Assembly (NCBI GenBank): GCA_902779785.1
Contig: CACZDC010000001.1
Span: 186,001-250,000, forward strand
Origin: an uncultured Bacteroidia bacterium
GTDB lineage: Bacteria > Bacteroidota > Bacteroidia > Bacteroidales > UBA932
Reading direction: 5' to 3'
DNA length: 64,000 bases
This document shows positions 3,402 to 21,395 of the stretch, in pieces. Below the pieces are notes generated by a model. It was not told the DNA's origin. It ran no database searches and saw nothing but the letters and a program-made list of their open reading frames with translations. Position 1 is the stretch's first letter; every line of letters begins with the position of its first letter. A program made the translations under genes and the position numbers.

Positions 3402-3611
3402 GCGTGTGTTTCGCCGTGAAACGCAAGTTGCAGAGTGTCAGCGACTTGTGTAAAATCGTCTATGTTCAAATGCATAGACGATTTTCTGTAAGTATCTGAC
3501 GGTTAGAGGTTTGCATTTTACGGGCGGCCGAGTGACAAATTCCGATGTTCAAGAGTTGGCATAGGTCAGCAAGCCGACAGCCACCCGCTTACTCGCGTCC
3601 TTGGCAATGTG
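3402..3611. other. Non-coding interval with hairpins
   Basis: I see no gene with coding character here. It contains a small GTTTC/GAAAC hairpin near 3408-3423. It also holds a perfect 13-base inverted repeat (3452-3464 and 3473-3485, AAAATCGTCTATG and its complement), which could be a bidirectional terminator or a small-RNA end. From about 3490 the sequence has no recognisable element. Confidence 0.5.
3452..3485. terminator. Perfect inverted repeat, likely bidirectional terminator
   Basis: AAAATCGTCTATG, an 8-base loop, then its exact reverse complement ending in TTTT. The A-tract on one side and T-tract on the other would let it stop transcription from either side. No gene ends immediately before it, since secDF already has its own terminator, so its purpose is unclear. 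Confidence 0.4.
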
Positions 3612-3695
3612 TCTGGAGTTTGTGTGCAGGGTGCGTACTAATCTGCACCGCATATGTTTTGTTGGTGTGGTAGCGGGAGTGGGGCACGGTCTCAC
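3612..3695 (-). repeat. Degenerate copy of tRNA-Met 3' end plus flank (possible att site)
   Basis: The 84 bases align to 21269-21346 in the same orientation, with 72 of 78 aligned positions identical and two gaps (1 and 5 bases). On the minus strand the copy begins inside the T-arm of a tRNA-Met, runs through the acceptor end with CCA (TCCCGCTACCA), and continues about 55 bases downstream, including the inverted repeat GTGCAG-N13-CTGCAC. The 5' two thirds of the tRNA are absent, so this is not a functional tRNA gene. It and the intact tRNA bracket the mannan locus. Confidence 0.7.
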
Positions 3696-3779
3696 GCAGC
3701 CTCAAAAGAAGAAGCGCGAAAAGTAATCTGCGCATCCCGGAAAAATTCTGTTCTTGCAAAAAAAGTATCAAAAAATGAT

Positions 3780-3787
3780 TAAATTTG
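3780..3787 (+). promoter_or_regulatory. -7 promoter element of the AraC regulator
   Basis: TAAATTTG ends only four bases before the ATG at 3792, so the transcript should start at or next to the start codon (leaderless or nearly so). Confidence 0.5.
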
Positions 3788-3791
3788 CAGT

Positions 3792-4667
3792 ATGAAACTA
3801 CTGCACGAAATCACCCCGCTCTCGGAAAAAGACTGCTTTTACATTGTTGAAAGGCATAAAACGGTATTTAGTTATCCGATTCACCAGCACCGCGAGTGCG
3901 AGCTGAACTTCATCGAGGGAGGCGAAGGCATACGGAGGGTAGTTGGGGACAGTGTCGAGGAGATCGGTCCCTATGAACTGACTTTGATCGGAGGGCACGA
4001 ACTGGAGCATACCTGGGAGCAGGGACGCTGCGCCGAGGCTGACATCCGGGAGATCACGATTCAGTTTTCCCAGGAACTCTTCCCTCCGGAACTCCTGGCA
4101 AAAAATCAGTTTGCCGCCATCAGCCGGATGCTGGAGCGTGCCGGCAACGGCCTGACTTTCCCGCTGAAGACCATAATGCGGGTGTATCCGCTGCTCGACA
4201 GTCTGGCCAGCGAGACCGACCGCTTCGAGCAGTATCTGCATTTCTTGAAGATACTCAATATCTTGGCGGAGTCGGAGGGCGCCAGGGTGCTGGCTTCTTC
4301 CTCTTTTGTTCCGACTGCGAAACAAGCCGAGAACAGGAGAATCCTCCAGGTCAAACAATATGTCTCCCAGCATTATTCCGAGCCGGTCCGGCTGGAGGAG
4401 ATTGCTTCGGTAGCCGGTATGACGCCTTCGGCCTTCAGCCGGTTTTTCCGTCAGCAGACAGGCCGGACGGTTAAAGATTACCTGATAGATGTCCGGCTGG
4501 GCCATGCCGCCAGGATGCTCGTGGACACTCAGGCCGACATTTCCGAAATCTGTTACTGCTGCGGCTTCAACAACCTGTCCAATTTCAACCGCCTTTTCAA
4601 GGCCAGGAGGGGCTATGCGCCGCGCGAATTCCGTTCTATCTTCAAGAAAAACAGAGTCTTGGTATAG
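3792..4667 (+). CDS. AraC-family transcription regulator of the mannan locus
   Basis: Cytoplasmic DNA-binding regulator of 291 residues. The N-terminal part (about 10-160) looks like a cupin-type sensor domain (HQHRECELNFIEGGEG). The last 100 residues carry the two AraC helix-turn-helix motifs (LEEIASVAGMTPSAFSRFF and ISEICYCCGFNNLSNFNRLF, ending in YAPREFRS). It sits directly upstream of, and co-directional with, the mannan operon, so it probably activates that operon in response to a mannan-derived sugar; this is inference from position. The start is fixed by the -7 box, which leaves no room for another ATG. Confidence 0.9.
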   Translation: MKLLHEITPLSEKDCFYIVERHKTVFSYPIHQHRECELNFIEGGEGIRRVVGDSVEEIGPYELTLIGGHELEHTWEQGRCAEADIREITIQFSQELFPPELLAKNQFAAISRMLERAGNGLTFPLKTIMRVYPLLDSLASETDRFEQYLHFLKILNILAESEGARVLASSSFVPTAKQAENRRILQVKQYVSQHYSEPVRLEEIASVAGMTPSAFSRFFRQQTGRTVKDYLIDVRLGHAARMLVDTQADISEICYCCGFNNLSNFNRLFKARRGYAPREFRSIFKKNRVLV

Positions 4668-4706
4668 TTCTGGCAAAATTAGTATCGATTTTAGATAAAT
4701 TTGTAC

Positions 4707-4737
4707 TTGTAGTCGCCTGAGAATCGTCGTACTTTTG
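4707..4737 (+). promoter_or_regulatory. Promoter of the mannan operon (-33 TTG / -7 TACTTTTG)
   Basis: TTG at 4707-4709, a 20-base spacer, then TACTTTTG (4730-4737), a full Bacteroidota promoter. The box ends six bases before the ATG of the first GH26 gene, so the message is probably leaderless. The hexamer GTACTT occurs twice, 26 bases apart (4703 and 4729), and could be part of an AraC site. A second -7-like box, TAAATTTG, lies at 4696-4703. Confidence 0.55.
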
Positions 4738-4743
4738 CAAAGT

Positions 4744-5940
4744 ATGACAAAGTACCTCATTTCTGGATTGGCCACCATATTGGCGGCGACCATTCTGTAT
4801 TCCTGCGGACCGCAGGATAAAACTACGCCGGATGCCATAGAAACGCGGCGTCCGCTTTTGTCTGACCCTATGGCCACAGCCAAGACAAGCGCCCTGTATG
4901 AAAACCTTATCGACCTGATGGACAAGGGGACAATGTTCGGGGCCCAGATTCCGACAGAATATGGGCTCGACGGCGGTAAAAAATGGTTTGATGACGGGAC
5001 GGCCTCCAATTCCGACACTAAGTTTCTGACAGGAAGCCATCCGGCTGTCTGCGGATGGGACATTACCTATATCGAGGTAGATGCGGAGGAAAACATCGAC
5101 GGAGAAAAATTCAGCGATATCCGCCGCCATATCATCGCAGCCTACGGGCGCGGCGGAGTCAATACTATCTGCTGGCACTGTACCAATCCTGTCTCTATGA
5201 AGAATGCCTGGGACGGGACGCGGGCGGTCTATTCCATAATTCCGGGCGGAGCAAAGCACGAAATGTTCCGAGGGTGGCTCGACAAGGTGGCTGCATTCAT
5301 CAGCAGTCTCAAGACTCCGGACGGGGATCTTATCCCGCTGATTTTCAGACCCTGGCACGAGCATACGGGCTCCGGATTCTGGTGGGGCAAGGGCAATGCC
5401 TCGCAGAATGAATTCGTACAGCTGTGGAAATTCACGGTGGATTATCTCCGGAATGAAAAAGGCCTGCACAATCTGATTTTCGCCTATTCTCCGGATATGG
5501 TCCATATCTATTCCCGCGACGCCTATATGGAATACTGGCCCGGAGATGCTTATGTGGATATCCTCGGTCTGGACGCCTATGACCGGGACGGCGCCGATTA
5601 CGGCCACAAATGCCTGCAGCTGTGCCGGCTCGGGAACGTGATTGCCCGTGAAAAGGCAAAGATTTTCGCCCTCACGGAAACGGGACTCGAGAACAACAAT
5701 CCCGAAGAATCCAAGTACTACCATAAAAAATGGTGGACCCAGATGCTTTACAAGGTCATCAGCGGAGAGAGGATTTCCTTTGCCCTGCTGTGGCGTAACG
5801 GCGGTTTTCCCTCGGAGGGCAGCCATTATTTCAACGCCTGGCGAGGATGTTACACTGAGGCGGACTTCTTGGATTTCGCTTCGCGGGAGGGAGTCCTCCT
5901 GGAAAGGGATCTTCCGGATATGTACCATTATGCGAAATAA
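4744..5940 (+). CDS. GH26 endo-beta-1,4-mannanase lipoprotein
   Basis: Hydrolyses internal beta-1,4 bonds of mannan, most likely at the cell surface or in the periplasm. A lipoprotein signal ends at Cys21 (ILYSC). The catalytic domain of about 350 residues shows GH26 landmarks: the acid/base Glu206 in FRPWHEHTG followed by GFWWG, the nucleophile Glu312 in LTETG, and the [10 protein letters not shown] strand. It opens the operon and overlaps the next gene by 11 bases. A TTG nine bases upstream lies inside the -7 box, so ATG 4744 is used. It is clearly related to the second GH26 at 16267, sharing the same motifs throughout. Confidence 0.93.
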   Translation: MTKYLISGLATILAATILYSCGPQDKTTPDAIETRRPLLSDPMATAKTSALYENLIDLMDKGTMFGAQIPTEYGLDGGKKWFDDGTASNSDTKFLTGSHPAVCGWDITYIEVDAEENIDGEKFSDIRRHIIAAYGRGGVNTICWHCTNPVSMKNAWDGTRAVYSIIPGGAKHEMFRGWLDKVAAFISSLKTPDGDLIPLIFRPWHEHTGSGFWWGKGNASQNEFVQLWKFTVDYLRNEKGLHNLIFAYSPDMVHIYSRDAYMEYWPGDAYVDILGLDAYDRDGADYGHKCLQLCRLGNVIAREKAKIFALTETGLENNNPEESKYYHKKWWTQMLYKVISGERISFALLWRNGGFPSEGSHYFNAWRGCYTEADFLDFASREGVLLERDLPDMYHYAK

Positions 5941-7234
5941 ACTGTTCATAGTCCTCGCATCCGTCCTGCTGGCGGCAGCCTGCGGACAGGAGCCCGACAC
6001 GGCTGCTGTCCGGGCCTATATCGCCCGCTCCTGGGACGCAACTCTCCGCTTTAACTCCAGCGACACGCCCGATTCGCTTATCGGCCTGCCGCGTCCATAT
6101 ACGGTTCCCTGTGCAGAAGGAATGTTCAACGAACTGTATTATTGGGATACATTCTTCACCAATGAGGGATTGATTGCGGACGGCCGCATTCAGGCTGCGG
6201 AAGATAATGTCGAGAACGTACTCTATCTAATTGATAAATATGGATTTATGCCAAACGGCAACCGCCTTTGGTACCTCTCCCGCTCGCAGCCTCCCTATGC
6301 GGCACTGATGGTGGAAAAAGTCTATGAGGCGACGGCCGATACGGCCTGGCTCCGTAGAGCTTTCCCTATTCTGGAAAAGGAGTACGCTTTCTGGATGCGG
6401 GAGCGGATGAGCACGACGGGGCTGAACCGCTACGGCTGGAATGAAGTCCCGGACACGCTTGCGGAGGAGTTCATCACTACTGCCGGAAAGCGGCTTGGCT
6501 GTGATTTCCGCCGGATGGGATGGGACGCTGAAAGACTGAGGAAATTTGCCCTTGACTGCATCGCGGAATGCGAATCGGGCTGGGACTTCAATCCCCGCTT
6601 CGAGCGCCGCTGCAGCGATTTCTGCCCCATAGATCTGAATGCCACTTTGTACGGAGCGGAGATGGCTATGGCCCGTTTTGCCTCTGTACTGGGGAAAGAC
6701 AGTTTGATTTGGACCAGGAGGGCGGAAATAAGAAAGGAACTGATGAGAAAATTCTTTCTGGACCCAGAGAAAAAGGCCTTTTTCGACTATGACTATGTCC
6801 AAGGCCGAAGAGGCGAGGTCGTCAGCGCCGCGGTTTTCTCGTTGCTGTTCAACAAGGTGCTCTCCGCCGATGAAGCCGAACTTGTACGCGGAATGCTTCC
6901 CCGCCTGGAGTATCCGGCAGGACTTGCGGTTTGTGCAGATGCAGATTACTGCTATCCCTACCAATGGTCTTATCCGAATGCCTGGCCTCCTACCACCTGG
7001 CTGGCCGTCCGAGGCCTTCTGAACTATGGCTTTGACGCGGATGCACGTCGTCTGGCGGAAAAGAGCCTCTCCGCGACCGTTTCCCTATGGCGTAAAAGCG
7101 GCAAACTCTGGGAAAAGATGAACTGTACGGACGCGTCAATGCCGGTGGACAGAGAATATGACACGCCGGAAATGATGGGATGGACCGCCGGAGTTTTCAT
7201 TATGCTTGACGAATATATAAAGAACTCAATATGA
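5930..7234 (+). CDS. Trehalase-like GH37/GH63-type (alpha/alpha)6 glycoside hydrolase lipoprotein
   Basis: 434 residues starting at MRNKLFIV with a lipoprotein signal ending in LAAAC (Cys18). The rest resembles clan GH-G barrels. A first signature (GMFNELYYWDTFF, about 64-76) and a second (QWSYPNAWPP, in the C-terminal third) match the two trehalase patterns in part. However, the PGGRF arginine is replaced and the QWD aspartate is Ser. It may therefore act on a substrate other than trehalose, perhaps a side-group or terminal sugar of mannan; the specificity is not visible. It overlaps the GH26 stop by 11 bases and the SusC start by 4, so it is translationally coupled. Confidence 0.75.
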   Translation: MRNKLFIVLASVLLAAACGQEPDTAAVRAYIARSWDATLRFNSSDTPDSLIGLPRPYTVPCAEGMFNELYYWDTFFTNEGLIADGRIQAAEDNVENVLYLIDKYGFMPNGNRLWYLSRSQPPYAALMVEKVYEATADTAWLRRAFPILEKEYAFWMRERMSTTGLNRYGWNEVPDTLAEEFITTAGKRLGCDFRRMGWDAERLRKFALDCIAECESGWDFNPRFERRCSDFCPIDLNATLYGAEMAMARFASVLGKDSLIWTRRAEIRKELMRKFFLDPEKKAFFDYDYVQGRRGEVVSAAVFSLLFNKVLSADEAELVRGMLPRLEYPAGLAVCADADYCYPYQWSYPNAWPPTTWLAVRGLLNYGFDADARRLAEKSLSATVSLWRKSGKLWEKMNCTDASMPVDREYDTPEMMGWTAGVFIMLDEYIKNSI

Positions 7235-10200
7235 AAAAATTAGCAAGAGTTATCCTGGGACTTCTGCTGCTCGCCGCTTTCCCGGCGGGTGTATTCGCGC
7301 AGGAAGGGATGGTAAAGGGCGTCGTCTATGACGTGGACGGCAGCCCTATGCCCGGGGTGAGCGTGGTGGTTCCCGGCACGTCTTCCGGCGTGGTGACCGA
7401 TATGGACGGAAAATTTTCCATAAAGGCTGCGGCGGGATCTGTCCTCGAATTCTGGTACCTTGGCTATGAAACCCTTACAGAGACGGTAAGCCAGAGCTCT
7501 CAGCCCCTGGAAATCCGTATGGTACTCTCTGCCGACGTCCTGGACGATGTCGTCGTGGTCGGATACGGGGCAGTCAAGAAGAGTGACCTGACCGGCTCGG
7601 TGGGCTCCGTCAAAATGGAGGCTATCGCCGACCTTTCCGCCTCTTCGGTGGACGGGCTTCTGCAGGGTCGCGCCGCCGGACTTCAGGTTATGAACACCTC
7701 GCAGGATCCCGGTTCCGGGGCCATTATCCGCATCCGGGGTAATTCTTCCATCAACGGCTCGAACACGCCGCTTGTGGTCGTGAACGGCTTTCCGATGGGA
7801 GATGCAGGCGCACTGACTCAGATCAACACCTCCGATATCGCCTCCGTCGAGGTCCTGAAAGATGCCTCTGCTTCAGCGATTTACGGCTCACGGGGTGCGA
7901 ACGGGGTCATACTTGTTACGACAAAGAATGCCGAGCAGGGGAAGACGACGGTTTCCGTCAAGCACCAGACAGTAGTCAGTACGCTCTCGGACAAGGTGGA
8001 CATCTGGTATGACCCGCTGCTGATGGCCGAGGTCTCCAACGAGGAAATGGCCAATGCCGGACTCAATCCTCCCTATATCGGACAGACTTTGGGCGGCATC
8101 TATTATCCCTCGCTGCTGGAAATCCAGAACGGGGAATGGGCCAATACGGACTGGGTGAAACTCTGCCTCCGCACGCCTTTGGTGAACACCACCACCGTTT
8201 CGGTTAACAGTTCCGGCAGCAAGGCCTCTCTCAACCTGAATGTCAATTACTACAACGACCAGGGTATCTACAAGAAGGATGCTTATGACCGCCTGAATCT
8301 CAACGCCGGCTTCGATTACAAGATTACGGACAAGGTCCGTTTCTCTTCCTATAATGTAGTGTCTGTCTCCAGCCGCAATGTCTCCAACGGCCTGGAATAT
8401 GGCCGCAACCCTCTCTGGCCTGTCTATAATGAGGACCATAGCTACTATCTTGCCGGGCCGACGGATTTTTCTCATCCGCTAATAGCCCTGGAAGACCGTA
8501 TGAACAAAACGGCCGGGCGCGATTTTCTGACCTCCGGCGCATTGGACTGGGACATCATCAGCGGACTGAGACTCCATACCCAGCTGGACTATCGCTACAA
8601 AACCTCCCTTCAGGACATATACGAGGCCAGGACCACCTCCCAGGATGCCCACGACAACAATGGTATCGCGAAGGAGAACATGACCCAGTATAATGAAATA
8701 CTGACGGAGACCTATCTGACCTGGAACAAGGCCTTTGCCGGGAAACATAATCTTTCCCTTATGGCCGGTCATTCTTTCGGTTACGAGCAGAACCGCGGCC
8801 TGTACACCACGGCCCGTGGCTTTGTCAACGATGTGCTCCGCAACGAGGATATGAACGGTTCCGACCCGGCCCTCCGCCAGATATACAATGACGGATACTA
8901 TGTGTCCAAACTCCTTTCTTTCTATGGCAGGGCCAATTATACTCTGCTGGACCGCTATCTTTTCACCCTTACGATGCGTGCGGACGGCTCGACCAAATTC
9001 GGAAAGAACAATAAATGGGGCTATTTCCCTTCAGGGGCGGTCAGCTGGAAGATGCACAAGGAAAGCTGGCTCGCGGATCTGAGATGGCTGAGTGAGCTTA
9101 AGCTCAGGGCAAGCTACGGCATCTCCGGAAACCAGGGAATCAATTCCTATCAGACGCTGGACCGATATGGCAGCGAGAAATACTGGCACGACGGCAACTG
9201 GGTGACAGTCATCGGTCCCGGTTACGAGGCCGGACGCACGGGCGCCAATGACCGTTATTTTGTCTGGGGCGGAATAATGAACCCGGCGCTTCGCTGGGAG
9301 ACTACGGCTCAGACAGACCTTGGAATCGACGCCGCCTTCTTCAACAGCCGCCTGAGGCTGACGGCGGACGTGTACTACAAGAACACTTACAATCTGCTCC
9401 GCGAGAAATACCTGCCTTTGTCCTCCAGTTACGACAAGATCTGGGTCAACGACGGAACGGTGGAAAACAAGGGTCTGGAAATATCTCTGGACGGGGATAT
9501 AATTTCCACCCGCGACTGGACTTTCTCCGCCGGATTCGTTTTCTCGGCCAACCGTAACCGTGTGCTCAACCTTGGAGACGCCATTTCCAGCGGCCTGTCC
9601 ACCGATGAAAGGACCGGAATGCTCTATGAAGTGAGCGGGCCGGCCATCTCGATGTTCAACCAGAATGCCAGCATCCTGGCGGAAGGCCAGCCGATGAATG
9701 TGTTCTATGGCTACAGGGTCGACGGCATTATCCAGGAGGACGAAAATCCGGGATTCATTGACCCGTCGGCTCTGCTTGACCGTCCGGGAGAACTGAAATA
9801 CGTGGATTTGGACGGGGACTTCGCCATCAGCTCGAAAGACCGCTGCATCATAGGCGATCCGAATCCTGATTTCACGGCCAGCCTCAACCTGAGGGCATCC
9901 TGGCGGCATCTTTCCCTCTCGGTGTTCCTTTACGGTGTGTACGGGAATGACGTGCTCTACAACGGTTACACCTACAGCCCCCGCGTGAAAGCGCGGCGCT
10001 GGACACCGGACAACCCCACTCAGGATTTCCCGAGCCTGAAGAGCAACAGGCAGTATTACCTCTCGGACTACTTCATCCAGGACGGCTCCTTCCTGCGGGT
10101 CCAGAACATCACTCTCAGCTACGAGATTCCTTTCTCCAAGAAATGGATTCAGAGCATACGCATCTACGGCAATATCGACAATCTATATACTTTGACGCGC

Positions 10201-10299
10201 TTCGAAGGCTTTGACCCTGAAGTGGGACTCGACGGAATCTACTGGGGCGGTTATCCCAAGTTCCGGAAATTCTCCCTGGGCGTCGATCTTAATTTTTAG
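7231..10299 (+). CDS. SusC-like TonB-dependent outer-membrane transporter
   Basis: Imports mannan oligosaccharides across the outer membrane with the SusD partner encoded next. The 1022 residues begin with a signal peptide (cleavage after GVFA). A carboxypeptidase-regulatory-like domain follows (about 27-100), then the SusC box with DDVVVVGYGAVKKSDLTGSV (about 108-127), the plug domain (LVVVNGFPMGD, SAIYGSRGANGVILVTTK), and a long beta-barrel ending in aromatic Phe. It starts in an ATGA overlap with the preceding hydrolase and is followed five bases later by susD. Confidence 0.96.
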   Translation: MKKLARVILGLLLLAAFPAGVFAQEGMVKGVVYDVDGSPMPGVSVVVPGTSSGVVTDMDGKFSIKAAAGSVLEFWYLGYETLTETVSQSSQPLEIRMVLSADVLDDVVVVGYGAVKKSDLTGSVGSVKMEAIADLSASSVDGLLQGRAAGLQVMNTSQDPGSGAIIRIRGNSSINGSNTPLVVVNGFPMGDAGALTQINTSDIASVEVLKDASASAIYGSRGANGVILVTTKNAEQGKTTVSVKHQTVVSTLSDKVDIWYDPLLMAEVSNEEMANAGLNPPYIGQTLGGIYYPSLLEIQNGEWANTDWVKLCLRTPLVNTTTVSVNSSGSKASLNLNVNYYNDQGIYKKDAYDRLNLNAGFDYKITDKVRFSSYNVVSVSSRNVSNGLEYGRNPLWPVYNEDHSYYLAGPTDFSHPLIALEDRMNKTAGRDFLTSGALDWDIISGLRLHTQLDYRYKTSLQDIYEARTTSQDAHDNNGIAKENMTQYNEILTETYLTWNKAFAGKHNLSLMAGHSFGYEQNRGLYTTARGFVNDVLRNEDMNGSDPALRQIYNDGYYVSKLLSFYGRANYTLLDRYLFTLTMRADGSTKFGKNNKWGYFPSGAVSWKMHKESWLADLRWLSELKLRASYGISGNQGINSYQTLDRYGSEKYWHDGNWVTVIGPGYEAGRTGANDRYFVWGGIMNPALRWETTAQTDLGIDAAFFNSRLRLTADVYYKNTYNLLREKYLPLSSSYDKIWVNDGTVENKGLEISLDGDIISTRDWTFSAGFVFSANRNRVLNLGDAISSGLSTDERTGMLYEVSGPAISMFNQNASILAEGQPMNVFYGYRVDGIIQEDENPGFIDPSALLDRPGELKYVDLDGDFAISSKDRCIIGDPNPDFTASLNLRASWRHLSLSVFLYGVYGNDVLYNGYTYSPRVKARRWTPDNPTQDFPSLKSNRQYYLSDYFIQDGSFLRVQNITLSYEIPFSKKWIQSIRIYGNIDNLYTLTRFEGFDPEVGLDGIYWGGYPKFRKFSLGVDLNF

Positions 10300-10304
10300 G
10301 GCTT

Positions 10305-11816
10305 ATGAGAAAGAATAACATCCTTTCATTTGCGGCTGCGGCCGCCCTTCTCTGGAGTTGTTCCATGGAGGAGGTCCCATACGGCTTCTATTCCGGCGAC
10401 AATTTCTACAAGACGGAGGCCGACGCCGAGTCCGCCCTGATGTATGCCTACAATGCCTTGAACTATCTGGAGTATCTCCGGGGCATCTGGTATGTCGGCG
10501 ACATCCCTACCGACGATATGTATCCCAAGTCCGACGAGCCTGGAGACATCCATATGCTCGAAAACTGGACGGTAAACAGCAACACCGAACTGACGCACTA
10601 TTACTATAAATACTGCTACATCGGCATCAACCGCGCCAATGCGGTTATAGAGCGGATCGGCAACAGCAGCCTGCAGGAAGAGGTGAGAAAGCGCGTCGTC
10701 GGCGAGGCGCTGTTCCTGAGGGCCTGGAACTACTTCAACCTGGTCCGCACCTTCGGCATCTGTCCTTTGAGCGTCAAGCCCATCTCCTCGCTGGAACAGA
10801 CCACATCGCCCCTGGCCAAGGATATCAATGAAATTTATCAGCTGATTATCAAGGATTTGAAGGAGGCGGAGGAGATGCTTTCCGCAAACAAGGTTTTCGG
10901 CCGTGCGGACAAGGCCGCCGCCCAGGCCCTGCTGTCAAAAGTCTATCTGACACTGGCTTCTTCAGTCGATTACGGGGCGGCAGGATACCGGAATCTCTCA
11001 ATTGACCCGGAAGAGACCTATGCCCTTGCTGCACAGTATGCCCGCAAGGTCGTGAACGACTACCCTTCCCTCTACGGCTTTGACGATGACCTGCGCCATA
11101 TCTATGATGTGAATGCGCCGGACGGCCCTGAGCATATTTTTATAATGAGTACGGACCGCAGCGGCACCCACGAGGGTATGTACACCAAGATTCCCCTCCA
11201 GTTCCTGCCCAACAACAGTTCCGTACCGATTTTCATCAAGTACAGTGACGGAACCCTTCAGCGGGGGAACGGCAACGGATGGGGCGTCTTCCTCATCAAC
11301 GACGATTTCGTGGAGAATTCCTACCTGCCTACGGACAAGCGCCGTACGGAACTGATCCACCGCACGATATACGACCAGAACGGCGTTGAGGTGACCCCTT
11401 CCCCGGTCCGGGGTTATTACACTTCTAAATATGTGGATCCGGACTTTATCGGGGAACGTACCAGTGCCCGTCCGTATCTCATCCGCTATTCGGACATCGC
11501 CCTGGTGCTGGCCGAGGCGGCAGGCCCCGGCGAGGGTTATCCGCTGGTGAACCACATCCGCTCACGTGCCGGAATTACCGAACTTACGCCCGGGATGGAC
11601 AAAGCCAGTTTCCGCAAGGCTGTCATAAACGAGCGCAAACTCGAACTGGCCTTCGAAGGCAACCGTCTGTTCGACCTGAGGCGCACCGCGAGCGTGACAT
11701 CCACGGTTCAGGAGGCGGCCAGCCTGTCGGAGGACGAGGCGGCCTTCTATCCCATTCCCCAGCGGGAAGTGGACCTCAACCCGAATGTTCCATCTTCCAA
11801 CAACAATGCAAAATGA
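10305..11816 (+). CDS. SusD/RagB-family surface glycan-binding lipoprotein
   Basis: Lid and binding partner of the SusC transporter, anchored in the outer membrane facing out. The 503 residues have a lipoprotein signal ending in LLWSC. The N-terminal SusD-like helices follow (GDNFYKTEADAESALMYAYN, YCYIGINRANAVIERI, VGEALFLRAWNYFNLVRTFG). The conserved C-terminal part includes INERKLELAFEGNRLFDLRR and a closing FYPIPQREVDLNPN. Position straight after SusC is diagnostic. The next gene starts in its stop codon (ATGA). Confidence 0.95.
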   Translation: MRKNNILSFAAAAALLWSCSMEEVPYGFYSGDNFYKTEADAESALMYAYNALNYLEYLRGIWYVGDIPTDDMYPKSDEPGDIHMLENWTVNSNTELTHYYYKYCYIGINRANAVIERIGNSSLQEEVRKRVVGEALFLRAWNYFNLVRTFGICPLSVKPISSLEQTTSPLAKDINEIYQLIIKDLKEAEEMLSANKVFGRADKAAAQALLSKVYLTLASSVDYGAAGYRNLSIDPEETYALAAQYARKVVNDYPSLYGFDDDLRHIYDVNAPDGPEHIFIMSTDRSGTHEGMYTKIPLQFLPNNSSVPIFIKYSDGTLQRGNGNGWGVFLINDDFVENSYLPTDKRRTELIHRTIYDQNGVEVTPSPVRGYYTSKYVDPDFIGERTSARPYLIRYSDIALVLAEAAGPGEGYPLVNHIRSRAGITELTPGMDKASFRKAVINERKLELAFEGNRLFDLRRTASVTSTVQEAASLSEDEAAFYPIPQREVDLNPNVPSSNNNAK

Positions 11817-12709
11817 AAAAGATTCTGATACTTGCCACAGCCTTGCTTGGCTGCATCTGTTGCACCAAGGCTATCGACTCTGATGATCCCGGCAATGGAA
11901 TGACGCTCCTGGAACTGAAAATCCAGGGACAGCTTGGAACTGCCGTAATCGAGAGGGACTACGACGAGTGCCGGGCGACTGTCTATGTGATGGACAGGAA
12001 GGATTTCCCATTTTCCGCGGTTCCGGTAGTCGGGGTGGTCGTCTCGCACGGAGCAAGTTCGAGCGTGAAGGCCGGTCAGACGCTCAATTTCAGCAATCCC
12101 GAACGCAGGGCCCGTATCACAGTGACTTCGGGCTCAGGGAAATCGCTGGTCTGGAACATCTACCTGAAGGCTTATGACGCATTCTATGTGGGAGAATGGG
12201 CCGTGGTCAACGTCAAGCTGCATTGTAACCAGAGGGTAAGCGGCTCAGGAGACGGCTCCTGGGACACGCCTCTCAACGGCTCTGAATTCGGCTCTTTCGG
12301 CCTGCCGGAGTATGATGACCACGTAATAATCACTATGAACGACGAGCCGGAAGACAATATGCTGACCGGCAAAATTACCCATACCGCCGGCCTGGACGGC
12401 AAATATGCCCATTTCTGGGGTGTGTACGCCCCTTATTCCGAAGAGGCGCCGCTCGATATGGACCCGAGGCTCCGTCATCTGCTTCCTCCGGGAGAAGCCA
12501 GCTGGAAGCTTGACCTTACCACCGGGCAGATGCGGATAAGCAAGGACAATGTGACCTCGACGATGATATTCGGTACGGATGAATGGGACAACACTCTCTT
12601 CCGTTTCCCCCTGCAGAATGCCGGCGGGGAACCCTCCAGGGACGGTTTCTACGACAATATGTGGCGCAGTTCCACGGAGCTTTTCTATGTAATGGTTAAA
12701 ATCAATTGA
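11813..12709 (+). CDS. Putative surface glycan-binding lipoprotein
   Basis: 298 residues with a lipoprotein signal (MKKILILATALLGC). The N-terminal half (about 25-120) looks like a small beta-sandwich of the kind found at the start of SusE-position proteins (FSAVPVVGVVVSHGA, ARITVTSGSGKSLVWNIYLKAY). I do not recognise the C-terminal half (about 125-298); it is rich in Trp, Tyr and Asp, as sugar-binding modules often are. Its place right after SusD suggests it binds mannan at the surface; that is inference. Confidence 0.65.
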   Translation: MKKILILATALLGCICCTKAIDSDDPGNGMTLLELKIQGQLGTAVIERDYDECRATVYVMDRKDFPFSAVPVVGVVVSHGASSSVKAGQTLNFSNPERRARITVTSGSGKSLVWNIYLKAYDAFYVGEWAVVNVKLHCNQRVSGSGDGSWDTPLNGSEFGSFGLPEYDDHVIITMNDEPEDNMLTGKITHTAGLDGKYAHFWGVYAPYSEEAPLDMDPRLRHLLPPGEASWKLDLTTGQMRISKDNVTSTMIFGTDEWDNTLFRFPLQNAGGEPSRDGFYDNMWRSSTELFYVMVKIN

Positions 12710-12713
12710 TATT

Positions 12714-14261: not shown

Positions 14262-14265
14262 GGCT

Positions 14266-14406
14266 ATGAAAAAAGCTTACACGACCCCGGATGTGGATAA
14301 TAGGTTTTCAGTCTGGGAAAAAAGTTTTCTTGTCGTCTCCGGCGGCAATGTTCAGAACTCTTCCTTTGAAGGGGACTGGGTAGTTGGTGATGAGTTGGAT
14401 TATTAA
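14266..14406 (+). CDS. Small 46-residue Bacteroidales-type peptide
   Basis: A short gene between two SusE/F-like genes, five bases after the first stop and 13 bases before the next start. The peptide starts MKKAYTTPDV and has a central hydrophobic VWEKSFLVVSGG before an acidic tail. The pattern MKK-x-Y-x-x-P followed by a short hydrophobic patch and Ser/Gly is one I recall from many small unannotated Bacteroidales peptides. It has no signal peptide or known domain. Position and conserved opening support it; its function is unknown. Confidence 0.45.
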   Translation: MKKAYTTPDVDNRFSVWEKSFLVVSGGNVQNSSFEGDWVVGDELDY

Positions 14407-14419
14407 AATGGAGGGAAAT

Positions 14420-16270
14420 ATGAAAAAGATTTTATCCGGGCTCTGTTTCGCCCTTGCCCTCGTTGCCTGCAGCGAAAAGCCGCAGCTTGATCTGAATACC
14501 GATGTGCAGTGCTATACTGTCTACGCCAGTGTTCCTGAAAACGTTGTCAGCCGCGTAAGCATCAGCGATGCCGGTTCGCCTGCCTGGCAGAGCGGTGATG
14601 CTATCGCCCTTTATGACGGGACACAGTTTGTTACCTTCAATCTGAAGGATGCCTCTACAGGAGCCTTCGAAGGTCCCGTGGGGAGCTATACCGGTCTTGC
14701 CGTCTATCCGGCGGCAATAGCCGGCAGCGTCTCCTCGAATGGACAGCTGACTCTCAACCTGCCTGAACAATACAATTGGCAGGAAGGTCAGACCAATGCC
14801 CCGATGATTGCCGTCTCCACTACTGACAGCTTCACATTCTACCCGGTCTCCGGCCTGATGAAGTTTACCTATACTTCCATCCCTGCGGATGTCACAAGTC
14901 TCCGCTTCGGAACCGGCAGCAAGGTCAGCGGCAGCTTCTCCATAGCTGCGCCCGTCCCCGGAACTGCCGTTATCTCTCAGGAATCGGCCCAGTCGGACCC
15001 GGAGAAATTCATCACTGTGAACATTCCTGCAGGCCATCCTTCCACGATGAACTTCTATCTGCCTGTTCCCGTTTCTACCACCGGCTATACCGGCTTCTCG
15101 GTAGCTCTTTCGGCCGATGACGGCGTCCCTGCCGCGGAAATCACGTCCACTACAAACTTTACTCTCGGACGTAATGAAATGCGGCGCTACAAGTCCAAAG
15201 ACTGCAGCAGTACCCTTCCTGCGAAGCTTTATCTGGTCGGAGACTGCCTGGACCCGAGCTGGGGCTGGTCGGAAAGCAATGCCCTGGTCAAAGGCGAGGG
15301 CGCCGTCTATACCGGTAGCATCAACTTGACCCAGAATGGCGGTTTCAAGATCTACCTTAGCAATGACTGGAGTGCAACCTGGCTCAGCATCGACGAGACC
15401 AATTCCGCTTCGGACAATCTGATCATTGTCGGCGGAGAGGCCTACAAGGCGGCCCACAGCGTTGGAGACACTCAGATTCGTCTCAACAACTATGGTTATG
15501 CTCCCGGAAGGTACACGATGACGGTCAATCTCGGCACAAAGCGTATGACTCTTCAGGCAGACGATTCCGGCCCTGACAAACTCTATATGGTCGGCGGCTG
15601 CTTCAGCCAGTCCTGGACCTTCTCCGAAAGCCTTGCCCTCATCAAGGGCGCCAATGGCGTCTATTCCGCTTCCGGTATCCAGATGGCATTCGGTGACAAC
15701 AATGACGTCGGTTTCCGCATCTATACCGTAAAGAACGACTGGGGTCTTTGCTATACCTATGGAAACGGCGGATATGACAGCAACGGAATACAGCTCTACT
15801 ACCACGATATGAGCGGAGAGCCGCCTCAGATTTTCCCGGGTGATTACGGCTATGATGACGGAACGTATGATGTGTCGTTCAATATCAATACTATGGTGCT
15901 GACTCTGACTCCGTCCGCTGCGTCCGGGCCGGCGCAGCTGTATCTGGTAGGAAGTCCCTTCACCTGGAGCTGGAATTTTACCGGAACGCCCCTCGCCCGT
16001 CAGTCATCCGGCCTCTATACGGCCTCCGACATTGCGATGGATTTCGGGACAGGAGATTACGGCTTCCGCATCTACACAGTATTGAACGACTGGGGTCTTT
16101 GCTATACCTACAAGGACGGTGGCTACGACAGCACCGGCATCCAGCTTGCCTACCACGACGCCGGCGGTGAGCCGCCCCAGATTTTCCCCGGCTACTACGG
16201 CTTTTCCAGCGGAACGTATGACCTGAGTTTTGATATCAGTTCAATGTGGCTGACACTTACGAAAAAATGA
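14420..16270 (+). CDS. SusF-like multi-module lipoprotein
   Basis: 616 residues when started at MKKILSGLCF, which gives a proper lipoprotein signal (ALVAC, Cys17); ATGs at 14384, 14390 and 14408 would put extra residues before it. An N-terminal domain (about 20-265; it includes YNWQEGQTNAP) of fimbrillin-like or Ig-like character is followed by three SusF-type modules starting near LYLVGDCLDPSWGW, LYMVGGCFSQSWTF and LYLVGSPFTWSWNF. Modules two and three are nearly the same (both contain NDWGLCYTY and EPPQIFPG), pointing to a recent duplication. Likely a surface mannan-binding protein. It ends in an ATGA overlap with the second GH26. Confidence 0.72.
   Translation: MKKILSGLCFALALVACSEKPQLDLNTDVQCYTVYASVPENVVSRVSISDAGSPAWQSGDAIALYDGTQFVTFNLKDASTGAFEGPVGSYTGLAVYPAAIAGSVSSNGQLTLNLPEQYNWQEGQTNAPMIAVSTTDSFTFYPVSGLMKFTYTSIPADVTSLRFGTGSKVSGSFSIAAPVPGTAVISQESAQSDPEKFITVNIPAGHPSTMNFYLPVPVSTTGYTGFSVALSADDGVPAAEITSTTNFTLGRNEMRRYKSKDCSSTLPAKLYLVGDCLDPSWGWSESNALVKGEGAVYTGSINLTQNGGFKIYLSNDWSATWLSIDETNSASDNLIIVGGEAYKAAHSVGDTQIRLNNYGYAPGRYTMTVNLGTKRMTLQADDSGPDKLYMVGGCFSQSWTFSESLALIKGANGVYSASGIQMAFGDNNDVGFRIYTVKNDWGLCYTYGNGGYDSNGIQLYYHDMSGEPPQIFPGDYGYDDGTYDVSFNINTMVLTLTPSAASGPAQLYLVGSPFTWSWNFTGTPLARQSSGLYTASDIAMDFGTGDYGFRIYTVLNDWGLCYTYKDGGYDSTGIQLAYHDAGGEPPQIFPGYYGFSSGTYDLSFDISSMWLTLTKK
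15713..16221 (+). repeat. Tandem module duplication inside the SusF-like gene
   Basis: The segment starting at 15713 recurs at 16064, a period of 351 bases (117 codons). The best conserved part encodes NDWGLCYTY, with about 25 bases of exact identity, and later EPPQIFPG. The first module of this gene and those of the preceding gene are much more diverged, so this pair is the youngest duplication. Confidence 0.7.
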
Positions 16271-17490
16271 GATTAAAACAACTTAGCCTAAACCTGATCG
16301 CCGCTCTCGGACTGTTCTCCTGCGCCTGCGGGGGGACAGTTTCGGGGCCGAAAACGGTGGAAAAGGAGGAAGGACAGCCCTCTGTCCCGGCAGAACCTGC
16401 AGACCCGGCCGCCAAGACGGCCGCGCTGCTGGAGAACCTCTCCGCCCTTCGCACAAAAGGGATTCTCTTCGGGGCCCAGATTCCGACCGAGTACGGGCTT
16501 TCGGGCGGAGAGAAATGGTGGGATGACGGTTCTGTGAGTACCTCCGACACCAAAATCCTCACCGGAAGTCACCCGGCCGTATGCGGCTGGGATATCTCCG
16601 AGATCGAGCTCAATCACTCCAAAAACATTGACGGAGAACCCTTTGAGACTATTCGGAAGCACATCCGGGCGGCATACGGAAGGGGAGCTGTCAACACTAT
16701 TTCCTGGCACTGCGCCAACCCGGTCACAGGAGGCAATTCCTGGGACAATACCCCGGCCGTGCACGAAATGCTGCCGGGCGGATCCCGACACGAACTGTTT
16801 AAGGATTATCTGGACCGCGTGGCCGCCTTCTTCTATGGACTTACTACGGAAGAAGGAGATCTGATTCCGCTGATTTTCAGACCCTGGCACGAGCATACCG
16901 GGAATGGTTTCTGGTGGGGAAAAGGCAGTGCCGAGGCGGCGGATTTCGCCGCGATGTGGCGCTTTACCGTGGACTATCTCCGCAAGGAAAAGGGTCTGTA
17001 CAACCTGCTTTTCGCCTACTCTCCGGACGCCATCCATTTCATCTGGAATCCGGAGTCTGACTGGAAGAACATCTATCTGGAATTCTGGCCAGGCGACGAG
17101 TATGTCGATATTCTGGGCCTGGATGCCTACGATGCCGCCGGAAGGCGTTTTTCTCAGGTCGTCCCCGTCCTCTGTAAGATGGTCTCGGGCATAGCGGAAC
17201 AGAAGGGGAAAATCGCGGCCCTTACCGAGGCCGGCATAGAAAACAACAACCCCGCCCATTCCTCCTATACCAATGCCCGCTGGTGGACGGAAGTCCTCTA
17301 CCCGGCCATCCACGGAGCCGGTCTGTCCTTCGCGATGGTTTGGCGCAACGGCGGATTGCCGCCTGACAGCCATTACTTCAACGCGTACAAGGGCTGCTAC
17401 AGCGAGGCTGATTTCAAGCAGTTTGCCTCCCGGGAGGACATTCTCCTGGAGAGGGATCTTCCAAAAATGTATGAGAAGAATGAATTATAA
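16267..17490 (+). CDS. Second GH26 endo-beta-1,4-mannanase lipoprotein
   Basis: 407 residues starting at MRLKQLSLN in an ATGA overlap with the previous stop. The lipoprotein signal ends at LFSC (Cys19), followed by a Pro/Glu-rich linker (about 25-50). The GH26 domain keeps both catalytic acids: Glu209 in FRPWHEHTG and Glu321 in LTEAG. It is a paralogue of the GH26 at 4744, with a few extra residues (NPESDW) before the LEFWPGD strand. Two copies with different linkers may cut different mannans or sit on different sides of the outer membrane; this is inference. Confidence 0.93.
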
Positions 17491-18646
17491 AGCGAGACTT
17501 GCCTGGTTGCGCGGACAGCATCAGGAACTCCTGAACAGAATAAATGTCCCCGTCGAGGGCAACGGAATCTATGAGCGCTACCGCTATCCGGTGCTTACGG
17601 CGGAGCATACGCCGCTGGAATGGCGCTACGACCTGGACGAGGGGAGCAATCCTTTCCTGATGGAACGCTTCGGCATCCACGCCGTCCTGAATCCGGGTGC
17701 AATCAAATGGAATGGCCGCTATCTGCTTGCCGTCCGGGTGGAAGGGGCCGACAGAAAGTCGTTCTTCGCAATCGCCGAAAGCCCGGACGGAATCAACGGA
17801 TTCCGTTTCTGGGACCGTCCAGTCGTTCTTCCCGAATATGGTGAGCCGGCGACAAATGTCTATGATATGAGGCTGACTGCCCACGAGGATGGATGGGTTT
17901 ACGGCATCTTCTGCGTGGAACGGAAGGACCCCTGTGCCGGGGCCGGAGACTTCTCTTCAGCCGTCGCTGCCGCCGGAGTCGCGCGGACCAAGGACTTTGT
18001 CCATTGGGAACGCCTGCCGGATATTGTCTCCAAGTGCCAGCAGCGCAATGTCGTGCTCCATCCGGAGTTCGTGGACGGGAAATATGCCCTTTACACGCGT
18101 CCGCAGGATGGATTTATCCAGGCGGGGAATGCCGGCGGAATAGGTTGGGCGCTGGTCTCTTCGATGGAAGATGCGGTCATCAACGGAGAGCGGATCATCA
18201 ATCACCGCTTCTACCACACCATCAAAGAGAGCAAGAACGGGGAGGGCCCGCATCCGCTGAAAACGCCTCAGGGCTGGCTCCATCTGGCCCACGGTGTCCG
18301 TGCCTGTGCTTCCGGCCTCCGCTATGTCCTGTATATGTATATGACTTCCCTCGAGGACCCCGCCGTGGTCATCGCCGAACCGGCCGGCCTGCTTCTGGCT
18401 CCGGAAGGGGATGAGTATGTGGGAGACGTGATGAACGTCGTGTTCTCGAACGGATGGATAGCAGACGAAGACGGCCGCGTGCTGATCTATTACGCTTCTT
18501 CCGACACTCGTATCCACGTCGCCGAATCCAGCATCGACCGGCTTGTGGACTACTGTCTCCATACCGAGCCGGACGGTATGCGGACTGCCCTTTCGGTGGA
18601 AAGGCTGAACCGACTGATCGACAAGAACAATGGCAAAGCTTTCTGA
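17480..18646 (+). CDS. GH130 beta-1,4-mannosyl-glucose phosphorylase
   Basis: Cytoplasmic enzyme that splits 4-O-beta-mannosyl-glucose with phosphate into mannose-1-phosphate and glucose. The 388 residues match the normal length of this subfamily, with typical motifs: [19 protein letters not shown], the proton-donor Asp129 in [35 protein letters not shown] and [12 protein letters not shown] 17480 ([10 protein letters not shown]) overlaps the GH26 stop by 11 bases; ATG 17471 would add three residues. The epimerase at 20018 makes its substrate. Confidence 0.92.
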
Positions 18647-20021
18647 GAAAATAGCTTATGGTTTCGGAGATATGGCTTCCAGTATGTTCTGGAAGATATT
18701 CTCCTATTACCTGCCCATCTTTTATTCAGACGTTTTCGGTTTGAAGCCGGCCCACGCAGCGACGCTGCTTCTGGTGACGAAATTCTATGACGCAGTCAGC
18801 GATCCCGTAATGGGCCTTATCGCCGACCGCACCCATAGCAAGTGGGGAAAATACCGCCCCTGGCTGCTCTGGATGGCACTTCCTTTCGCCCTTATCGGGG
18901 TGGCGTCCTTTTATGTCCCCGATCTGGGATATGAGGCGAAACATCTGTATGCCTATCTGATGTACATCTTGATGATGACGGTCTATACCGCCGTGAATGT
19001 GCCCTATGGCGCAATGCTCGGCGTCGTAAGTGCCGATTCAAGAGAAAAGTCGGTGTTTTCTTCATACCGGATGTTCTTTGCCTATATCGGAAGTTTCGTG
19101 GCAATGGGCATTTTCTGGCTCTTTGAAAAGAAGATAATCGGGACTGAAGGACCCTCCGGCCGCATTATACGAGGAGTTGGCGATGCCGCGCCCCTGCAAT
19201 GGACAGCCGTCGTGGCAATTGTGGCAGGGCTCTGTGCCGTCCTCTTCCTGCTCTGCTTTGCCCTGACCAGGGAGCACGTGACTGAGAACGGTGAAAAGCG
19301 TACAGCCTCTGTTTCCGCCGATATCAAGGCGCTGCTGAAGAACAGTCCCTGGTGGCTGCTTCTCGGAGCAGGTATCGGGCAGCTGCTCTTCAGTTCCCTC
19401 AGGGGCGGCGCTGCGGCCTATTATTTCGCCAATATCCTGGGAGAGAATCCTCTTGTCACCTGTTCTGTCTTTCTCCTTCTTGGGGAGGTGGCCCAGATGG
19501 CCGGTGTAACGCTTGCCGTTCCGCTTTCCGGCAGCCTCGGAAAGCGCAATACCTTCCTTTTTTCCCTGCTTGGGATTGCCCTTCTGAGCTGCGGGATTTA
19601 TTTCCTTCCCGACACGCGTGCCGGAATGTGGCTGCTGCTTTTGCTGCAGGTTTTGGTCTGTGTCGGCATAGGGATAGGCTCGCCGCTGATATGGTCAATG
19701 TTCGCTGATGTGGCCGATGCCTCCGAACTGGAGCACGGCACGCTCTCGACAGGCCTTATTTTCTCTTCCTCTTCAATGGCCCAGAAAGCCGGAGGGGCCC
19801 TTGGCGGCTTCCTGCTGCTGATGATTCTCGCCTATGCCGGCTATGACAAGGACCTCGCCATCCAGGGGGCAGGGACGCTTAGGGCGATCAAGGCTCTGAT
19901 GAGTTTCATCCCGGCCATAGGGGCGGTTCTCGGGGCGGCCTGCCTTTGTTTCTACCCATATACGACTCAGCGGATGAAGGAGATCCAGGAGGCGTTGAAA
20001 AAACAGCGGGAAGAGAGATGA
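18630..20021 (+). CDS. GPH-family (MelB-like) glycoside:cation symporter
   Basis: Inner-membrane transporter of 463 residues with about twelve hydrophobic segments. The opening [19 protein letters not shown] and the loop [21 protein letters not shown] are typical of the GPH family, with the conserved Asp residues that couple sugar to Na+ or H+. It overlaps GH130 by 17 bases and the epimerase by 4. In this operon it most likely carries mannobiose or other short manno-oligosaccharides into the cytoplasm. Confidence 0.9.
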
Positions 20022-21160
20022 GGGATGCCGCGACTATGCTTACGGAAAGCATCCTTCCGTTCTGGCTGGGCCTGAAAGACCCGGCCGGCGGTTTTTTCGG
20101 AGAAGCGGACGGGGCAGGGCGTATTCGGAAAGATGCGGACCGCGGGGCAGTTCTGAATGCCAGGATACTTTGGACCTTCTCAGCCGCGTACCGGGTATTG
20201 GGAACAGAGTCGTATGCGGATGCCGCCCGTTGGGCGCTCTCCTATTTCCTGGATCATTTCCTGGATAAGGATGCGGGCGGGGTGTACTGGTGTCTGGATG
20301 CATCCGGCCGTCCCCTTGATGACAAAAAACAGCTTTACGCCCAGGCCTTTGCCATCTATGGCCTGAGCGAGGCGGCGCTGTCCCTCGGGGACTCCAGGGC
20401 ACGGGAAACAGCCGTCAGCCTTTTCCGCCTGGTGGAAAAGCACTATCGCGATGCCCTGTACGGGGGCTATGCTGAGGCGCTTGCAAAGGATTTCTCTCCG
20501 CTAGAAGATATGTCCCTGAGCGAGAAAGACATAAATGCGCCCAAAACTATGAATTCCCATCTGCACTTGATGGAAGCCTACGCCGCGCTCTTCAGGATTT
20601 GGCCGGATCCGGGCCTGGAGGCTGCTCTGAGGGCGCTTATCGACATCATTGGCGGGCGGATGACGGGAGAAGACGGACACCTCAGGCTTTATTTCGAGCG
20701 GGACTGGACGGTCCTTCCCGGAGAAATCTCCTGCGGTCACGACATTGAAACTTCCTGGCTTCTGACGGAGGCGGCTGAGATTATCGGTGATGCGTCCCTG
20801 ACGGCAAATATTCGTCCCCTCTCCCTTCGCCTCGGCCGGGCCGGAAATACTGACCTTCGGGCAGATGGTTCTCTAAGCGGAGAGTGGTGGACCTATGCCG
20901 AGACCGTGGTCGGCAATCTATACCTCCATATCTTCCACGTTGAGCCGGGGGCTATGGACAATGCGCTTCGCTGCTGGGATTATCTCTCGGCCCATCTTGT
21001 GGACAGAGAGCACGGAGAATGGTACTGGGGGCTTCTTCCGGACGGATCGCCGGACACCGTTTCTCCTAAAGCCGGCTTTTGGAAATGCCCCTACCACAAT
21101 TCGCGAATGTGCCTGGAACTGCTCACCCACGGCGGAGTTCTTTTGCAGCCTGGGCTTTGA
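20018..21160 (+). CDS. AGE-family 2-epimerase (cellobiose/mannobiose 2-epimerase type)
   Basis: Cytoplasmic enzyme that epimerises the reducing-end sugar, here most likely turning beta-1,4-mannobiose into mannosyl-glucose for GH130. 380 residues with the (alpha/alpha)6 barrel motifs of the family: PFWLGLKDPAGGFFGE, KQLYAQAFAIYGLSEA, MNSHLHLMEAY, GHDIETSWLL and a late WKCPYHNSRMCLELL, which supply the conserved His residues. Start in the ATGA overlap with the symporter; the reading frame continues upstream but only inside that gene. It is the last gene of the mannan operon. Confidence 0.9.
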   Translation: MRDAATMLTESILPFWLGLKDPAGGFFGEADGAGRIRKDADRGAVLNARILWTFSAAYRVLGTESYADAARWALSYFLDHFLDKDAGGVYWCLDASGRPLDDKKQLYAQAFAIYGLSEAALSLGDSRARETAVSLFRLVEKHYRDALYGGYAEALAKDFSPLEDMSLSEKDINAPKTMNSHLHLMEAYAALFRIWPDPGLEAALRALIDIIGGRMTGEDGHLRLYFERDWTVLPGEISCGHDIETSWLLTEAAEIIGDASLTANIRPLSLRLGRAGNTDLRADGSLSGEWWTYAETVVGNLYLHIFHVEPGAMDNALRCWDYLSAHLVDREHGEWYWGLLPDGSPDTVSPKAGFWKCPYHNSRMCLELLTHGGVLLQPGL

Positions 21161-21268
21161 CTATCAGCTGCTATATTTGCTCTTGTCTGTGAGGTAGGCG
21201 ATCGTATTCAATTCCATCCCCATCCCCATATAAACAAAAAACCATCACAAGAACTTGTGACGGGTATA
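21161..21268. other. Non-coding stretch after the mannan operon
   Basis: No gene is visible. It contains a -7-like TATATTTG (21172-21179) pointing right with nothing to express, and the terminator described at 21235-21263. No clear forward-strand terminator for the mannan operon is seen. Confidence 0.4.
21235..21263 (-). terminator. Terminator of tRNA-Met transcript
   Basis: On the minus strand the sequence CGTCACAAG-TT-CTTGTGATG is a hairpin followed by GGTTTTTTG. It lies about 55 bases after the tRNA-Met CCA end. Confidence 0.6.
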
Positions 21269-21346
21269 TCTGGAGTTTGGGTGCAGGGTACGTACTAATC
21301 TGCACGCCTATGTTGGTGTGGTAGCGGGAGTGGGTCACGATCCCAC
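21269..21346 (-). repeat. tRNA-Met 3' end plus flank, intact partner of the 3.6 kb copy
   Basis: 78 bases that match 3612-3695 in the same direction (72 identical). It covers the T-arm and acceptor end of the intact tRNA-Met and the bases after it, including the inverted repeat GTGCAG-N13-CTGCAC, whose middle contains the palindrome GTACGTAC. Confidence 0.7.
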
Positions 21347-21395
21347 GACCTCCGGATTATGAATCCGACGCTCTAACCAGCTGAGCTACCCCGCC
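21319..21395 (-). tRNA. tRNA-Met (anticodon CAT), elongator type
   Basis: A complete cloverleaf of 77 bases with encoded CCA. The acceptor is GGCGGGG/TCCCGCT (G1-U72 and G7-U66 wobbles), D-arm GCTC/GAGC, anticodon stem TCGGA/TCCGG around TTCATAA (anticodon at 21359-21361), and T-stem GTGGG/CCCAC. The T-loop reads ATCGTGA instead of the usual TTCRAnn, so both U54 and A58 are changed (A54, U58). A CAT anticodon could also mean tRNA-Ile with lysidine, but the body resembles Bacteroidales elongator tRNA-Met. Confidence 0.85.

Follow-up and report, generated by a model that had tools for sequence, protein, structure and literature searches.

Elements that integrate at the 3' ends of tRNA genes and polysaccharide utilization loci (PULs) that are carried by mobile DNA are both already known in Bacteroidetes. 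NBU1, NBU2, and MTnPi4 are Bacteroidetes elements located at the 3' ends of tRNA-Leu and tRNA-Ser genes, as given in the pertinent part of PMC5704250. For PULs, a section of PMC6907783 counts 47 SusC/SusD loci on mobile elements of gut Bacteroidetes, and porphyran, agarose, and carrageenan loci borne by integrative and conjugative elements (ICEs) or plasmids are cited in a portion of PMC8845570. The window analyzed here is a stretch of 64,000 nucleotides from an uncultured Bacteroidia bacterium of the UBA932 lineage (assembly GCA_902779785.1, contig CACZDC010000001.1, positions 186,001 to 250,000), in which a mannan-type PUL lies between an intact tRNA-Met(CAT) gene and a detached second copy of its 3' end. 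Given this position and the other insertions at the same tRNA in related genomes, the PUL is probably an old insertion. Our preferred reading, with a probability of about 0.6, is that it was brought as cargo by an element that inserted at the 3' part of the tRNA-Met gene, that the two flanking copies are attachment-site (att)-like, and that the integrase has since been lost.

The two copies form a direct repeat on the reverse strand at 3612-3696 and 21269-21347, with 73 of 85 columns identical in a global alignment (79 ungapped and 6 gapped). A repeat search of the window returned the same two blocks in direct orientation (37 nt at 95% and 37 nt at 92%), and the score of the whole repeat was 124 against a shuffle maximum of 38, none of 500 shuffles scoring as high. 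The right copy comprises the last 29 nt of the intact tRNA-Met(CAT), the proposed target gene (21319-21395, reverse strand), and 50 bp of DNA downstream of the tRNA, whose 3' end faces the PUL. A tRNA-Gln(CTG) follows at 21437-21508 on the same strand, as it often neighbors the tRNA-Met in relatives, and both tRNAs were intact according to ARAGORN and Rfam. The left copy, a tRNA-Met 3' end separated from the rest of the gene, retains the same 29 nt (T arm and acceptor strand at 3668-3696, aligned to 21319-21347) and downstream trailer DNA. Its limits are sharp on both sides in shuffle tests, at the edge of the T stem on one side and short of the terminator on the other. To the right of it no residual homology to the tRNA 5' half was found (1703 of 2000 shuffles equally good), and to the left none to the terminator side (1855 of 2000) or to the terminator region of the relative G145 (607 of 2000). 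A decayed full tRNA, or a copy with a decayed terminator, was rejected on the basis of these flanks. An earlier note, made from the sequence alone, had placed the repeats at 3612-3695 and 21269-21346 (72 of 78 bases identical), with the acceptor half of an intact tRNA-Met plus its flank on the right and the same segment without the rest of the tRNA on the left, and this description agrees with the present results. The genome-wide search that it proposed returned, for query 3600-3700 in the organism's own 2.78-Mb assembly (126 contigs), only the two repeat places at E≤0.001, and not the many unrelated sites that it had named as a refutation.

The 3' end of tRNA-Met(CAT) is a well-supported insertion hotspot in relatives. 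A search of 400 genomes from the genus with the left copy gave a match at E≤0.001 in 103 of them. In the loci read, many of the matches were the genome's own tRNA-Met, and 20 regions plus 20 more were read for extra 3' ends. These occurred in direct orientation in G252 (two), G207, G115, and G331 (both G331 copies being incomplete in the DNA read) and in inverted orientation in G062, G087, G081, and G342. G207 is atypical, with the intact tRNA at the far end, a fragment beside the tRNA-Gln, and another integrase (27% identical) between them. In G062 and G081, a tyrosine integrase is encoded directly 3' of the tRNA-Met. PF00589 was found in both, and the G062 protein also carries Arm-DNA-bind_5 and Phage_int_SAM_5. 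The earlier note had remarked that the mannan locus lies on the 3' side of its tRNA, and this is the side taken by the integrases of the relatives as well.

The G081 integrase as query had a match at E≤1e-40 in 30 of the 400 genomes. Each of the 14 integrases that are at least 54% identical to it has a tRNA-Met(CAT), or part of one, no more than 1.5 kb away. For 11 of them a tRNA-Met was called, with the integrase on its 3' side and in the same reading direction (two of the 11 tRNAs resemble the query at just 73-74%), and the remaining three have a tRNA-Met fragment nearby, in one case of 18 nt. Among the other 16 integrases, nine are near tRNA-Gly, -Ser, -Thr, -His or other tRNAs and seven are near none. 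The distant integrases of the same family beside such other tRNAs (L300, L302-L304, L306-L308, L310, and L311) suggest tRNA-specific subclades. Two forms are joined to the core GTGACCCACTCCCGCTAC, namely tRNA sequence ending in GGGATC and arm sequence ending in GCGGGCAG. A scan of 11 genomes for the exact core showed the arm form in six (G081, G062 twice, G087, G208, G244, and G240), each time with the junction at the same nucleotide. The joining of both sequences to one core is the mark that site-specific exchange in the T loop leaves. A viral origin was considered and rejected, as the integrase query had no relative among viral contigs. All its matches in phage (57 records) and plasmid (93 records) sequences were below 60% identity. 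No report of this tRNA-Met insertion site was seen in the literature listings searched.

The window keeps a piece of the arm of a G081-type element beside its tRNA-Met. This remnant of about 93 bp (21176-21268), which includes the tRNA terminator, has 91-94% identity to the G081 arm, and the stretch 21176-21278 is 91% identical to it. In relatives the arm sits between the integrase and the tRNA-Met, and the remnant is in the same position. At the tRNA-proximal end of the interval only this arm remnant was found, with no integrase among the proteins scanned between the copies. The arm as query matched in 15 of 20 genomes, most of which had been picked for having copies, and not in G034, G116, G016, G013, and G068. 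Matches above 100 bits were on contigs bearing a tRNA-Met, its remnant, or a detached unit, and in the organism's own genome the arm matched 21176-21268 and, weakly, 28 bases on contig C96.

The PUL occupies the interval between the copies, extending from 3759 to 21160 on the forward strand. It has a SusC/SusD pair together with glycoside hydrolases (Pfam) and looks like a beta-mannan PUL, judging its substrate from the protein families. Its genes, all on the forward strand and given by the limits of their open reading frames (ORFs), so that true gene starts may differ, encode an AraC-type regulator (3792-4667), a first GH26 (4735-5940), a trehalase-family protein (5642-7234), SusC (7231-10299), SusD (10305-11816), SusE (12714-14261), a second GH26 (16246-17490), GH130 (17273-18646), MFS_2 (18630-20021), and a GlcNAc-2-epimerase family protein (19946-21160), all assigned with Pfam. 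Two further ORFs (11813-12709 and 14384-16270) had no Pfam match at E≤1e-5. The PUL is complete and collinear in G264, where nucleotide homology begins at window position 3759 and extends to 21123. The left repeat is 62 bases from the start of this homology, and the stop of the last PUL ORF at 21160 is 108 bases before the right repeat and 15 bases before the arm remnant.

The left flanking gene is secDF (398-3325, forward strand; Pfam SecD_SecF_C and SecDF_P1_head) and the right one encodes a fusion of a protein kinase and an AAA ATPase (21608-23347, forward strand; Pfam Pkinase and AAA). When loci of relatives were compared with 3200-3612, similarity did not extend past about 3329. In other GTDB genomes, 80 secDF loci were compared, each with 0 to 10 kb of downstream DNA, and none had a tRNA-Met, a tRNA-Met fragment, or the PUL beside the gene. 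Three of them had SusC paralogues (26-43%) and one an epimerase gene (51%), and in seven relatives a conserved large ORF lies within about 3 kb after secDF. The PUL at the same place in all relatives, which the earlier note had named as counting against an insertion, is thus not what was seen: the PUL is absent beside secDF at 80 of 80 loci and is found elsewhere in 11 genomes. The comparison of the secDF-kinase interval that it suggested showed the PUL at 0 of 80 loci on the secDF side and returned no relative that keeps both flanks. At 16 kinase loci (of 42 genomes with a match), with up to 1.5 kb of flank, and on eight longer stretches upstream of kinases, none had the tRNA-Gln/Met. In the window (21608-24472), an unnamed ORF and then a gene for a PrsW-family protease come after the kinase-AAA fusion, and the similarity of this stretch to anti-phage ATPase and kinase models was far under the cut-offs.

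In G034, the closest genome by SecDF among those seen (93%), the tRNA-Gln/Met pair and the kinase are 2.7 kb apart and are separated by a GH92-containing ORF. No PUL genes were found in the 5.7 kb 3' of its tRNA-Met or in the 3.3 kb after its secDF. The 33 genomes with a SusD match described below do not include G034, which may lie outside the 300 searched. A detached tRNA-Met 3' end is present in G034 too (contig C76; L347 at about 10026-10054, and 2-181), with another trailer and a terminator of its own, about 9.8 kb from the end of aspS on the same contig. An end-overlap test of the G034 contigs gave no shared 21-mers, and the genome does not show an empty site because its contigs end inside the secDF-tRNA interval.

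The PUL is patchily distributed in the genus. With SusD as query, 33 of 300 genomes matched at E≤1e-60, of which 13, the window included, were at least 62% identical, leaving 12 other genomes at this level. In 11 of these 12 the PUL was read on stretches of 8-40 kb, of which none carries secDF and one (G264) carries the tRNA-Met pair. The SusD of the window is 81% identical to that of G009 and its SecDF 70%, compared with 81% and 84% for G312 and G148, SecDF being one yardstick only for genome relatedness. G114 groups with G272 in the SecDF tree (support 100/100) and with G264, G148, and G312 in the SusC (93/95) and SusD (97/97, inner order open) trees. The contrast between SusD and SecDF in G009 and the discordant placement of G114 support horizontal movement of the PUL within the genus and give no date for the event in the window. 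In G009, a tRNA-Arg gene lies with its 5' end toward the PUL, 155 bases from a GH26 match at the end of that PUL (L174, 16753-16981).

The sequence past the tRNA-Met carries the 3' signals of its transcript. A GTGCAG-N13-CTGCAC dyad at 21281-21305 (reverse strand), a pattern occurring twice in the window against 0 expected, had been likened in the earlier note to a recombinase core. It starts 13 nt past the annotated tRNA end, outside the tRNA, and folds as a hairpin ahead of the intrinsic terminator, whose hairpin and T run were located by folding at 21235-21264 (reverse strand). From folding and the comparison with relatives' trailers, the role of recombinase core was rejected in favor of a trailer hairpin of the tRNA-Met. 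A hairpin-forming trailer followed by a terminator with a T run is the common layout after the tRNA 3' end in most of 42 aligned positions. Exceptions include G062 and one G244 copy, which are without an intact terminator, and G145, in which an insert separates the tRNA from the trailer. The dyad sequence itself is specific to the subgroup of the window, other genomes having different stem sequences at the same place. With up to 3 mismatches it was found in 3 of 120 genomes, its own included, and a dispersed motif was rejected, all copies being at tRNA-Met except one in G078.

A hairpin ahead of the terminator was predicted in 19 of 24 trailers folded singly, the 24 being taken from the 42 aligned. 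Covariation of this first hairpin was not demonstrated because the consensus fold of 14 trailers recovered the terminator helix only (7 pairs, of which 2 were changed on both sides). At the left copy, shuffled sequences fold as well as the native stretch 3560-3658 does (z +0.85) and the terminator is absent, as expected of a decaying displaced copy. Rfam returned nothing on the window except the two tRNAs, and a livK match on G078 DNA was far under threshold and taken as chance. A lineage-specific hairpin and a terminator follow the tRNA-Met at window positions 21222-21319 (reverse strand) and in 23 trailers of relatives. From the predicted folds they might form a stable trailer RNA, for which Rfam gave no match in the window.

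In the proposed course of events, an integrative element with a tyrosine integrase would have entered the 3' part of the tRNA-Met(CAT) gene by site-specific recombination. The tRNA 3' end that it brought as a replacement, together with a trailer and terminator of its own, would be the present 21176-21347, and by this replacement the tRNA gene would have stayed intact. The old 3' end would have been displaced outward to the left, where it would now be decaying at 3612-3696. The PUL between the att-like copies would most likely be cargo of that element or of a later one in the same tandem, and the integrase would have been lost after insertion. This account builds on the duplicated 3' end and its sharp boundaries, on the insertion hotspot seen in relatives, on the arm kept in the window, and on the lack of the PUL beside the secDF of relatives, and from these we infer the acting integrase, its loss, and the joint arrival of the PUL and the att copies. 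The earlier proposal of an island at a tRNA site is therefore largely sustained, by the hotspot, the arm remnant, and the repeat, as regards insertion 3' of the tRNA-Met, a displaced tRNA 3' end on the left, and an old event whose integrase is gone, and the travel of the PUL on the same element is its conjectural part.

Several observations weigh against this account. No integrase, relaxase, or other mobility gene was found with Pfam among the proteins scanned between the copies, nor any relaxase or mobilization gene among the 16 window proteins scanned. The five PF00589 matches in the organism's own genome are all on other contigs, and the G081 integrase had no match there at E≤1e-40. The G+C content of the PUL (0.551) equals that of 27059-64000 (0.549), as would be expected for exchange within the genus. 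The earlier note had likewise reported a missing integrase and a host-like composition, taking the event to be old. At the left copy the P-arm of the G081 type is missing, the core carries one change, and the tRNA stretch is 9 nt longer, so another integrase family may have acted. At the PUL loci read elsewhere, a tRNA-Met 3'-end copy was not found at 10 of 11 and an integrase of the G081 family at none of 11. In G264, the PUL is 10.7 kb from the tRNA pair and on its 5' side, and its flanks had no direct repeat in common at E≤0.01.

The flanking genes add to these points. A relative with secDF adjoining the tRNA-Met and without the PUL, that is, a true empty site, was not found in the genomes read. 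At L247, aspS (window position 25265) directly follows secDF with no tRNA between, and all of 3326-25258 is missing. In G094 the kinase is found together with its following ORF and aspS, on 19.9 kb that carry no tRNA. These two arrangements show rearrangement beyond one insertion. Compared with L247, the window has two extra intervals, 3326-25258 (22 kb) and 27049-42907 (about 16 kb, after aspS).

The PUL may also have entered an existing array later. Under this accretion scenario, the tRNA 3' ends would be att remnants of one or more earlier elements, and the PUL would have come afterwards by homologous exchange or another route. Loci with multiple copies exist (G252 and G062), the integrase is gone, and the type of the left junction was not recognized. 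In Bacteroides, a passage of PMC8845570 also reports variable regions that are frequently PULs and lie between core 'genomic nodes', mobile functions being absent from most of them. The interval is filled tightly by the PUL, however, with 62 bases to spare on the left and 15 on the right, and a later unrelated insertion would rarely fit so well. We regard accretion as unlikely, if still a serious contender.

Tandem duplication can leave tRNA 3' remnants, and a duplicated tRNA-Met gene that decayed to its 3' part, with the PUL between gene and remnant by coincidence, would also give two copies. In its favor, two detached fragments in relatives do resemble the tRNA 5' half, with 2 of 2000 shuffles equally good for G223 and 181 of 2000 for G115. 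The left copy of the window, in contrast, ends at the T-stem edge and short of the terminator with no residual 5' half, and fragments of the 3' part alone recur in relatives alongside integrases and the constant arm, which makes a duplication improbable. A misjoin at the repeat in a draft genome of 126 contigs with 4.79% contamination is very improbable, even with the contigs of G061, G331, and G342 ending inside copies of the tRNA 3'-end unit, as the two copies are distinguishable by their gaps and by 6 differences in 79 ungapped columns, the contig of the window is 356 kb long, and the PUL is collinear with that of G264.

In relatives, the trailer-arm unit beside the tRNA-Met is also repeated in inverted orientation, with a constant P-arm, at the far end of cargo genes. 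Such inverted units were located at L131 5212-9758 (G081; integrase included, cargo Na/Pi transporter), L122 5685-10651 (G062; integrase included, cargo M64 peptidase/DUF285), L323 9074-14925 (G176; integrase included), and L126 7504-11775 (G087; cargo BspA-type LRR). In G208, two copies of the unit on different contigs share 255 of 260 bases. From their arrangement, the inverted units could be an invertible module. A broader and rather doubtful idea is that the tRNA-Met 3' end serves as a general socket of the genus, at which successive integrase modules and detached or inverted copies of one unit, made up of tRNA 3' end, trailer, terminator, and arm, swap, and perhaps invert, gene blocks up to whole PULs. 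If so, each event would give the tRNA-Met a new 3' end, trailer hairpin, and terminator, and the mannan locus would be one state of the socket. A tRNA-Met hotspot with its own integrase family is a concrete route by which a little-studied Bacteroidales genus may exchange whole sugar-degrading loci, and the att core, the arm sequence, and the integrase clade can serve as queries against further genomes for a PUL that is on the move.

Beta-mannan PULs have GH26, GH130, an epimerase-family gene, SusC/D, and an MFS sugar transporter. The PUL of the window resembles those with GH26 and GH130 and differs from them by a trehalase-family protein and a SusE protein. The proposed element would be similar to the integrative mobilizable elements NBU1, NBU2, and MTnPi4 in its insertion at a tRNA 3' end and in its tyrosine integrase, present here in the elements of relatives. 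Unlike them, its target would be tRNA-Met(CAT), no integrase or mobilization gene is left in the window, and its cargo would be a complete mannan-type PUL. As with the PULs on mobile elements of gut Bacteroidetes, the locus would have moved with mobile DNA, whereas the window keeps att-like remnants and the arm only. The PULs exchanged at core 'genomic nodes', as characterized in that part of PMC8845570, share with the window their position between conserved genes and the lack of mobility genes, and the window differs from them in that its interval has direct repeats of a tRNA 3' end and the remnant of an element arm.

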